DNA of 64,000 nt from Haloplanus salinarum (lineage in GTDB: Archaea; Halobacteriota; Halobacteria; Halobacteriales; Haloferacaceae): NCBI RefSeq assembly GCF_024498175.1, contig NZ_CP101823.1, positions 1,674,001 to 1,738,000 of the forward strand, read 5' to 3'. How positions within the stretch are numbered: position 1 is the first letter of the stretch; the number at the start of each line of letters is the position of its first letter. Made by a program: the position numbers and the translations under genes. Positions 1 through 2,855 of the stretch are shown here, piece after piece. The notes below the pieces were generated by a model, which searched no databases, was not told the DNA's origin, and saw only the letters and a program-made list of their open reading frames with translations.

Positions 1-360
1 GGCGACGTCTACGCGCTGGACGCGGAGTCCGGCGACCAACGGTGGCGCTTCGCGACGGGTGAGCCCGTGTTCTCGTCACCGACGACGGCCGACGACACCG
101 TCTACGTCGGGAGTCAGGACGACAACGTCTACGCGCTGGACGCGGGTTCGGGCGACGTACGATGGCGCTTCGAAACCGGGCTTGGCGTAGAGTCGTCACC
201 GGCGGTGGTCGACGGCACCGTCTACGTCGGAAGTTACGACGGCGACGTCTACGCGCTGGACGCGGAGTCCGGCGACCAACGGTGGCGCTTCGAAACCGGG
301 GATGGCGTTCGATCGTCTCCGGCGGTGCTCGACGGCACCGTCTACGTCGGGTCCAGCGAC
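1..360 (+). repeat. Tandem 120-bp repeat encoding propeller blades
   Basis: Three consecutive 120-bp units (1-120, 121-240, 241-360) each encode one 40-residue PQQ-like blade. Bases 1-52 and 241-292 appear identical, so similarity holds at the DNA level and not only in the protein. The array probably continues upstream of the window. Confidence 0.8.
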
Positions 361-1998
361 AACAGCGTCTACGCGCTCACCGGCGACACGCCGACGCCCA
401 CACCCACGTCGACACCGGCCCCCACGACCACCTCGATAGCCACCGATACCTCCGGGAGTCCGGACGACGACACCGATACCGACGACGACGCCTCGCTGCC
501 GCTCCTCCCCGTCGCGGGCGCGGCCGCCGCGGCCGGCGCCGGCGGCCTCTGGTACTGGCGGAACAACGGCGAGGACGCCGCCGGCACCGGCTCGACCGCC
601 GCCGACCCGTCGGACGACGGCGGCGGTGGCCCGGTGCGGCGGGGAACGCAACGTGCGAGCGAGGTGTCCGAATCCGGCTCGGACGATACCGGCCCCACAC
701 CCGATGCGGTCACCGACCCGCTCGATCGGGGAGACGACCACCGAGAAGCGGCGACCGAGCACGCCGAGGCCGGCGAGTACGACCGCGCGCTCTCGGCGCT
801 CGACGACGCTCGCGAAGCGTACCGCGAGGCCCGCGAGGCGGCGGGCGAAAGCGAGGCGGTCGACGGCGAGGGGATCGAGGATCGGTTGGCGACCCTCGAC
901 GATCGCCGGCGAGAGGTGCGCCGGGAGCGATTGGCGTCTCGCCACGATGCGGTACGGGACGACCTCGACCGCGCGGGATCCCTCGTGGAGACCGATCCGG
1001 AGACGGCCCGTCGCCAGCTGATGGACCTCGAAGACGATATCGGCGACCTCGCGTCCCGGGCAGCCGGCCGCGGGTTCGACGACCTCGCCGACCGAGCGGC
1101 CACCCTGGAATCCGAGCGGGTCGACCTGCTGGCCCAGACCGAGCGTGCGGGACATGAGGGCCCGCCCGAGTCGATCCCCGAGGCACCCGACGTCACGGTC
1201 GACTACGAGGCGCTGGCCGACGAGGAACCCATCGGCGGTGGCGGCAACGCCGACGTGACGAGAGCGACCCTGCCGACGCCCGAGGGCGACGTGGCCCTCG
1301 CGATCAAGCGCCCGCGGATGCAGGGGACGCTCCACACCGACGCCGTCGAGCGACTCATGCAGGAGGCCGAGACGTGGGACAAACTCGACGACCACGACCA
1401 CGTGGTCGGCGTCATCGACTACGGAGCCGAACCCCTCCCCTGGATCGCCATGGAGTACATGGACGCCGGGCATCTCGGGGAGCGGGCGGGCGGCCTGGAC
1501 TTCGAGCAGGCGCTCTGGACGGCGATTTCGATCACGAAGGGTGTCCGGCACGCCCACCGCCGGGGCGTCGCTCACCTGGATCTGAAGCCGGCGAACGTCC
1601 TCTTCCGCGGGGTCGAGGGAGCGTGGGACGTCCCGAAAGTCGCCGATTGGGGGCTCTCGAAACACCTGCTGGACCACTCGAAAAGTGTCGAAGGTCTGTC
1701 CCCGCAGTACGCCGCCCCCGAACAGTTCGATACGGATCGGGGTGCGGCCGACGACCTCACGGACGTCTACCAACTCGGTGCGGTCCTCTACGAACTCTTC
1801 ACCGGGGAACCACCGTTCGATGGTTCTCCCGCGGAGGCGATGCACCGGGTGTTACACGAGGAGCCGACGCCGCCAAGCGAGGTGGCGGGCCTGCCGCCCG
1901 CGTTGGACGACGTGTTGCTGACGGCGCTCGAAAAGGAGCGATCCGACAGATACGACGGCGTTTTGCTGTTGCGCGAGGCGTTGCAGGGCCTCCGGTGA
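1..1998 (+). CDS. PQQ-propeller receptor-like Ser/Thr protein kinase (5' end outside window)
   Basis: The frame is open from base 1, so the start lies upstream; 665 residues are visible. Residues 1-125 are PQQ-type beta-propeller blades (VYVGS..D..VYALDA.SGD.RWRFETG, about 40 residues each). A Pro/Thr-rich stalk and Asp-rich segment lead to one membrane helix (about 166-186), a helical segment (about 240-385) and a protein kinase domain (about 400-665). Kinase motifs are a GGGGNADV nucleotide loop (412-419), the AIK lysine (K436), HLDLKPAN with catalytic D527, DWG in place of DFG (D549), and APEQF. The inferred topology is an outside propeller sensor and a cytoplasmic kinase, possibly phosphorylating Ser/Thr. 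The missing HRD arginine and the DWG motif are variants, but the Lys and both Asp are present, so activity is plausible. The ligand is unknown. Confidence 0.85.
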   Translation, partial: GDVYALDAESGDQRWRFATGEPVFSSPTTADDTVYVGSQDDNVYALDAGSGDVRWRFETGLGVESSPAVVDGTVYVGSYDGDVYALDAESGDQRWRFETGDGVRSSPAVLDGTVYVGSSDNSVYALTGDTPTPTPTSTPAPTTTSIATDTSGSPDDDTDTDDDASLPLLPVAGAAAAAGAGGLWYWRNNGEDAAGTGSTAADPSDDGGGGPVRRGTQRASEVSESGSDDTGPTPDAVTDPLDRGDDHREAATEHAEAGEYDRALSALDDAREAYREAREAAGESEAVDGEGIEDRLATLDDRRREVRRERLASRHDAVRDDLDRAGSLVETDPETARRQLMDLEDDIGDLASRAAGRGFDDLADRAATLESERVDLLAQTERAGHEGPPESIPEAPDVTVDYEALADEEPIGGGGNADVTRATLPTPEGDVALAIKRPRMQGTLHTDAVERLMQEAETWDKLDDHDHVVGVIDYGAEPLPWIAMEYMDAGHLGERAGGLDFEQALWTAISITKGVRHAHRRGVAHLDLKPANVLFRGVEGAWDVPKVADWGLSKHLLDHSKSVEGLSPQYAAPEQFDTDRGAADDLTDVYQLGAVLYELFTGEPPFDGSPAEAMHRVLHEEPTPPSEVAGLPPALDDVLLTALEKERSDRYDGVLLLREALQGLR

Positions 1999-2100
1999 GT
2001 CCAGCGGTGGCCGCCCGGACGGGAGCCGTCACGGCCGACCGGTCGCCGTCGCGACGCGCGGCAGGTGACCGGCAAGTCGACTATCGTCGTCCACCGCCCG

Positions 2101-2148
2101 CTATATAGCCCTACATAGAGGACTATTGACGGGGGGATAACGCTTAGG
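2101..2148 (+). promoter_or_regulatory. phoU promoter region with paired 8-bp repeats
   Basis: A TATA-like element lies at about 2141-2148, some 25 bases before the phoU ATG at 2172, which fits a leaderless transcript. Upstream, CTATATAG (2101-2108, palindromic) and CTACATAG (2111-2118) sit exactly 10 bp apart, one helical turn. This looks like an operator or activator site; the binding protein is unknown. Confidence 0.45.
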
Positions 2149-2171
2149 GGGGTCGAGGAGAGTGTACTGGT

Positions 2172-2855
2172 ATGGCTCGAACGGATTATCAGTCGTCGCT
2201 CGAGGACCTCCGCGACGACGTTCTCTACATGAGCGAAGTCGTCGCGGAGCGGTTGCGGACGGGGCTCGACGCCCTGGAACGGAAGGACGAACGGATCGCC
2301 CGGGAGGTGATCGACGGCGACGCCGAGATCAACGACATGTACCTCGAACTGGAGGGGGAGTGTGTCGACCTCATCGCCCTCCAGCAGCCGGTCGCGAGCG
2401 ACCTGCGCTTCATCGCCGCCTCGTTCAAGATCATCACCGACCTCGAACGCATCGCGGATCTCGCGGTGAACCTCGGCGGGTACACGCTCGACGCCGAACG
2501 CGACCTCTTCCCGGACGTCGACATGCAACGGATCGGACGGGCGACCCTCGACATGCTCGACGACGCGATGAGCGCCTACGCCGACGAGGACGTCGACCTG
2601 TGTTACGATGTCGCCGACCGCGACGAGGAGGTGGACGCGATGTGCGAGGCCGCCAGCGAACTCGTCGTCCGCGACCTGATCGAAGGCGATTACCTCGGGG
2701 AGAGCGAGGACGACGCCGAAATCGAGACGTTGATGCAGGACGTCTCCCGCCTCCTGCTCACCATCCGCGACCTCGAACGCGTCGGCGACCACGCCGTCAA
2801 CGTCGCGGCACGCACCCTCTACATGGTCGAGAACGACGACGAACTGCTGTACTGA
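2172..2855 (+). CDS. phoU: Phosphate signalling protein PhoU
   Basis: The 227-residue, all-helical acidic protein has the PhoU layout of two related three-helix bundles, each with repeated D/E-rich metal-binding segments. Family members link the phosphate ABC transporter (Pst) to phosphate-dependent regulation and often act as negative regulators of uptake. The length matches ordinary two-repeat PhoU proteins. The ATG at 2172 lies about 25 bp behind a TATA-like box. No pst genes are visible in the window, so this copy is separate from any transporter operon, and its partner cannot be named from context. Confidence 0.9.
   Translation: MARTDYQSSLEDLRDDVLYMSEVVAERLRTGLDALERKDERIAREVIDGDAEINDMYLELEGECVDLIALQQPVASDLRFIAASFKIITDLERIADLAVNLGGYTLDAERDLFPDVDMQRIGRATLDMLDDAMSAYADEDVDLCYDVADRDEEVDAMCEAASELVVRDLIEGDYLGESEDDAEIETLMQDVSRLLLTIRDLERVGDHAVNVAARTLYMVENDDELLY

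Follow-up and report, generated by a model that had tools for sequence, protein, structure and literature searches.

A propeller-membrane-kinase chain beside phoU in Haloplanus salinarum: a probable receptor kinase with a variable sensor

The stretch of DNA analysed here (the window; 64,000 nucleotides, C1:1674001-1738000 of the single-contig, 3.45 Mb genome of Haloplanus salinarum) opens inside a reading frame that is cut by the window edge (positions 1-1998, plus strand; the 3' 72% of the full gene), and the domains encoded there raise the question of whether this haloarchaeon makes a receptor kinase and what such a protein might do. The first-pass annotation had placed propeller blades, a stalk, a membrane helix and a protein kinase domain on one chain, a reading that would fall if propeller and kinase were separate proteins, and it had left the upstream start and the signal sequence to be found. 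The full gene (C1:1673230-1675998) encodes 922 amino acids from an ATG located 771 nt upstream of the window, which is the first start after the preceding stop, and its product contains, in this order, a putative twin-arginine signal, eight PQQ-like blades, a Thr/Pro/Asp stalk, one Ala/Gly-rich membrane segment, a helical juxtamembrane domain and a Hanks-type kinase. Thus, the complete frame and its Pfam matches bear out the single chain and rule out separate proteins, and six paralogues, as well as proteins of congeners and other haloarchaea, follow the same plan. The window itself does not include the start, the signal or blades 1-5; the features within it are collected in Table 1.

Table 1. 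Features of the receptor kinase gene, and the gene that follows it, by window position.
Feature	Position	Strand	Basis
C-terminal part of 8-bladed PQQ-like propeller (aa 258-384)	1..381	+	Pfam PF13360/PF13570; 8 repeats; modelled related ectodomain
Thr/Pro/Asp-rich stalk (aa 385-421)	382..492	+	Sequence
Single membrane segment SLPLLPVAGAAAAAGAGGLWYW, then RNN (aa 422-443)	493..558	+	Sole hydrophobic peak >1.0; position common to paralogues
Juxtamembrane helical domain (aa 500-641), TPR-like hairpin and long antiparallel helices	727..1152	+	AlphaFold2; kept in the G001 and G007 relatives
Hanks-type protein kinase domain (aa 645-920)	1162..1989	+	Pfam PF00069 (Pkinase), 98.9 bits against a gathering cut-off of 31.7; M. 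tuberculosis PknB in the PDB, E 2.5e-28; Foldseek to Stk1/PknB
Glycine-rich loop GGGGNADV	1234..1257	+	Family alignment
Catalytic Lys K693 (AIK)	1306..1308	+	Invariant in family; nearly invariant in 39 kinases
Catalytic loop HLDLKPANV with Asp784; Leu in place of the HRD Arg (non-RD)	1573..1599	+	Kinase comparisons
DWG with metal-binding Asp806	1645..1653	+	Kinase comparisons
APE motif	1714..1722	+	Kinase comparisons
Stop codon of the receptor kinase gene	1996..1998	+	
phoU, next gene after the kinase (context, outside the receptor)	2172..2855	+	TIGR02135 above cut-off

Among solved structures, PknB and Stk1/StkP come closest to the kinase domain, and AlphaFold2 folds window positions 727-1995 with a pLDDT of 94.5 into the helical juxtamembrane domain (pLDDT >90 across most of its length) joined to a two-lobed kinase. 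All of the Hanks residues are present, namely K693, E712 (the helix-C Glu), D784, N789, D806, E831 (APE) and D845 (the F-helix Asp), and the glycine loop is kept; these residues are mostly invariant among 13 family members, and the catalytic ones are invariant or nearly so in the kinases compared. The earlier reading, that HLD and DWG replace the usual motifs while the catalytic Lys, Asp and metal Asp are retained, holds and can be refined: HLD is found throughout the haloarchaeal clade, HRD occurs in most of the other Halobacteriota loci examined and DWG is common to most of those kinases, and the combination of HLD and DWG is normal for this archaeal clade. DWG is also used by CK2. The arginine absent from HRD defines the RD subclass only, and the window kinase is, by its motif, a non-RD kinase, whose activation may depart from the PknB scheme because the catalytic-loop Arg is absent. 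We infer kinase activity, Ser/Thr specificity and sensing for this receptor.

The ectodomain matches the Pfam families PQQ_2 (218 bits) and Beta-prop_ACSF4 (262 bits), and its blade motif occurs in exactly eight copies with a spacing of 40-41 aa. A related ectodomain from Haloglomus irregulare, standing in for that of the window protein, was modelled as an eight-bladed propeller (pLDDT 91), with designed 8-bladed propellers and BamB as best structural matches; in the window protein, an additional N-terminal strand could close the ring. The term PQQ names a fold and implies no ligand, because the 922-aa protein contains no cysteine, and thus lacks the vicinal disulfide over the PQQ cofactor, and it stays far below the cut-off of PQQ-enzyme models (138 bits against 480 for the PQQ-dependent dehydrogenase family); PQQ as a ligand of the receptor is not supported by anything in the sequence. 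The blades share up to 88% DNA identity and contain exact repeats of 60 nt or more, spaced two blades apart, and this near-identity fits the continuous blade amplification known for propellers (PMC9218822). YxaL of Bacillus velezensis (7dxn, 7eq5) is likewise a PQQ propeller and matches the window ectodomain with an E of 4e-52, but the name given to the molecule, 'membrane associated protein kinase', is no more than a label: the entry is a plant growth-promoting factor, and the propeller takes up its solved chain (374-415 aa). Both entries had been considered as a solved archaeal propeller kinase and were dropped when the fold search gave Bacillus YxaL.

Read by eye, the N-terminus (WTRRDTLQTATGAFVGGTLVSGLSDTASAQ) shows a twin-Arg motif (WTRRDTLQ), a hydrophobic stretch and a cleavage site (...ASAQ), and it is regarded as a putative Tat signal; the RR motif, the hydrophobic stretch and the final Q after the small-residue stretch at the likely cleavage site recur in paralogues. 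The segment at aa 422-443 reaches a KD peak of 1.39, for which a threshold of 1.5 is too strict, and is followed by Arg, with the rest of the scan below 1.0; at the equivalent position, paralogues reach KD values of 1.9-2.8, followed by Arg/Lys. The topology is probably N-out, C-in, because a Tat-like signal is combined with one hydrophobic segment before Arg that is stronger in several paralogues. Moreover, the same kinase is present in a chain without a signal, fused to Hsp70-GrpE, which points to a cytoplasmic site of kinase action.

In bacteria, chains with PQQ repeats and a kinase are represented by AfsK, in which the PQQ repeats are C-terminal (Streptomyces, Deinococcus; PMC1262709). Like the window protein, AfsK joins a Hanks kinase to PQQ repeats in a single membrane-linked chain; however, the window protein has the reverse order, with the kinase at the C-terminus, and a Tat signal, and it scores 250 bits against a cut-off of 1300 with the AfsK family model (NCBIfam NF053615). 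The PASTA kinases PknB/StkP provide the closest solved kinase domain and a receptor plan, but their kinase is N-terminal and their PASTA sensor is absent from the window protein, which gives no Pfam match to PASTA repeats and 147 bits against a cut-off of 450 with the PASTA kinase model. For the membrane ePKs of Sulfolobus, such as SiRe_2056, the relevant passages of one paper mention a membrane segment and suggest outside sensing, whereas no propeller is described in those passages (PMC5682000). Other Halobacteriota have receptor kinases with a NosD beta-helix, which resemble the window protein in having two hydrophobic segments that frame an outside repeat domain and a C-terminal kinase with DWG, but differ in the beta-helix sensor and in the retention of HRD; such outside parts precede a membrane segment and kinase at L221, L225 and L230.

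The family search gives 16 matches in the H. salinarum genome, of which 13 are full kinase domains, one is a copy truncated at its 5' end and two are the halves of a single frameshifted copy. Two congeners contain 12 and 11 matches and the other nine none or weak ones, which amounts to a lineage-specific expansion. Seven chains in this genome have the Tat-propeller-membrane-kinase plan; in other chains the kinase is joined to an Hsp70-GrpE unit, to a plastocyanin-like domain or to multi-pass membrane parts. A survey of haloarchaeal genomes, as the first-pass annotation had advised, recovers the same receptor plan in Haloglomus irregulare (two in tandem), Halobacteriales archaeon QS_8_69_26 and Halovenus LUM.6, while Halomicrobium katesii has kinase and propeller in reverse order. 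Matches at E <= 1e-55 were found in 39/293 genomes and 17/87 genera of the order, with part of the candidates per genome scored, and the close family is thus patchy. No paper on a propeller receptor kinase architecture in haloarchaea was found in the open literature; as the search was limited to open papers, an earlier description elsewhere is possible. PADLOC matches to PD-T4-6 and mad6 were discarded, as they reflect just kinase-domain similarity and are given by every paralogue tested.

Further arrangements of the kinase were seen at other loci. Hsp70, GrpE and the same kinase form one chain in two genera (L042:6642-10061, minus strand, equal to C1:386642-390061; L194:12009-15137, minus strand), possibly a chaperone-coupled kinase, and at L046:6887-8479 (plus strand) the kinase is followed by a plastocyanin/azurin-type copper domain. 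One chain at L051:8410-11988 (minus strand) has a propeller, a PKD domain and two tandem kinase domains, L193:2289-14326 packs four kinases into 12 kb, of which two are each preceded by seven predicted membrane segments, and an IS605-type TnpB (L040:13871-15112, plus strand) adjoins a cluster of four kinases. The dead family members are the frameshifted kinase at L042:18329-19999, the frame of which continues into a substrate-binding-protein-like stretch, and the 5'-truncated kinase at L048:5867-6586. Moreover, the Haloglomus irregulare receptor at L059:3127-5457 (plus strand) has lost the catalytic Asp (HLG) and lies in tandem with an intact receptor, and a second receptor, at L040:5177-7504 (plus strand), reads HLDLV; both are possible pseudokinase receptors.

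The two halves of the receptor evolve differently. Among nine receptors, propeller identity is 40-62% and kinase identity 66-96%. Between the window gene and its relatives, pS is alike in propeller and kinase, while non-synonymous differences are 1.6-3.5 times higher in the propeller; kinases show a dN/dS of 0.13-0.26 and propellers one of 0.32-0.68. The sequences behind this contrast are highly diverged (pS 0.4-0.6), and relaxed constraint, instead of new sensing, could underlie it. By these ratios, the kinase half is under strong purifying selection. The sensor, in turn, is subject to turnover. At one syntenic locus in three species, with flanking proteins up to 91-96% identical, G000 has the kinase without a propeller, G007 has it with one, and G001 has two kinases, one with and one without. 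In the paralogue L043, the signal is retained along with a single vestigial blade, which aligns with a score of 128 (shuffled sequences reach <=70). The tandem pair L041 departs from the even pS of the window gene comparisons, with 0.38 in the propeller and 0.15 in the kinase, a pattern expected from gene conversion or a sensor swap. Propeller and kinase trees give the window gene different partners, but AU testing gave borderline values (0.06 and 0.039, for clades picked after the trees had been seen), so that recombination between loci is suggested, not proven.

The reading that we consider probable is that of a ligand-gated single-pass receptor kinase, in which a swappable propeller sensor is joined to a constant kinase output. 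The twin-arginine signal would direct the N-terminal propeller, probably in a folded state, through the membrane, where the Ala/Gly segment would halt transfer, so that the juxtamembrane helical domain and the kinase would remain cytoplasmic. Binding of a ligand or partner by the propeller would then change receptor pairing, and this change would be relayed by the juxtamembrane helices, bringing kinase domains together that could phosphorylate one another and, in a second step, Ser/Thr residues of cytoplasmic targets. The family evolves by birth and death, with a nearly constant kinase output and a propeller that diverges, is re-amplified blade by blade, and is swapped or lost.

The weak hydrophobicity of the membrane segment counts against this receptor reading, and it would suit export of the whole chain by Tat, with the kinase acting outside or on the cell surface, like secreted kinases. 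Tat is able to export folded multidomain proteins. However, ATP is scarce outside the cell, the paralogues are strongly hydrophobic at the same position with Arg/Lys after it, and the same kinase is found in the signal-less Hsp70-GrpE chain; thus, whole-chain export seems improbable. The location of the gene, between pstA and pstB upstream and phoU downstream, directly after pstB and on the same strand, would agree with a phosphate sensor that acts on PhoU or Pst. Nevertheless, pstB and phoU are direct neighbours, with no kinase between them, in 11/11 congeners, and the closest kinase relative (G001) is located away from pst-phoU with a 5' flank that matches that of the window gene, including the TATA-like GGGGAATCACTTATTA about 30 nt before the ATG, so the gene seems to travel with its own promoter. 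Moreover, phoU retains its ancestral upstream region, the spacer beside it being intact in the window and the additional DNA starting at the pstB stop. Together, the absence of the kinase from the site in congeners and its apparent own promoter leave the phosphate link unsupported; a conserved pst-phoU linkage, as expected of a Pho regulon component, is ruled out, and phosphate sensing is very unlikely. No shared direct or inverted repeat of at least 8 nt was found around the inserted gene. The upstream region of phoU itself (window 2100-2171) has CTATA/TATAG motifs conserved across most congeners and is likely a regulator site.

The insertion might also be a recent one with a non-functional kinase or propeller, that is, a decaying pseudoreceptor, and dead or altered relatives do exist, as the frameshifted and 5'-truncated copies in this genome, HLDLV in L040 and HLG in Haloglomus illustrate. 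The window copy, however, is intact, keeps all catalytic residues and has a kinase dN/dS of 0.13 against its closest kinase relative, and decay is hardly to be expected. A special case of the receptor reading would be a receptor that serves the function of IRE1/PERK by sensing misfolded exported proteins. The order of parts is the same: an N-terminal signal, then a PQQ-like propeller on the non-cytosolic side, a single membrane pass and a C-terminal kinase. By sequence, the ectodomain matches human IRE1 with an E of 4e-11 and PERK with one of 7e-9, the Hsp70-GrpE-kinase chain is encoded in the same genome, and the unfolded protein response is among the listed roles of PQQ propellers (PMC9218822). 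Yet these matches are generic to PQQ repeats, BamB and designed propellers scoring higher, the kinase is closest to PknB, export would use the Tat route, and the chain ends directly after the kinase with no RNase domain in the Pfam search. The likeness is real at the level of PQQ-type repeats and gives no evidence of common receptor descent; the receptor falls outside the AfsK family and probably outside IRE1/PERK, and an IRE1-like stress role is most unlikely. All four alternatives are less likely than a ligand-gated receptor.

Experiments on Ser/Thr signalling in archaea have mostly dealt with Sulfolobus, and the locus adds a haloarchaeal genus with a multi-copy receptor-kinase family that combines one conserved output with variable sensors, in only 3/12 species. 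The IRE1/PERK order of parts thus exists in archaea, and in the HLD and DWG kinase clade every catalytic residue is kept under purifying selection. More speculatively, and as an idea that we hold with considerable doubt, some haloarchaea may use a plant-like receptor-kinase logic, in which near-identical output kinases would read fast-changing, copy-number-variable propellers, renewed by blade amplification and swapping, that would probably recognise neighbours, viruses or envelope damage. The syntenic locus, where the same kinase occurs with, without or with a different ectodomain, provides a natural experiment.
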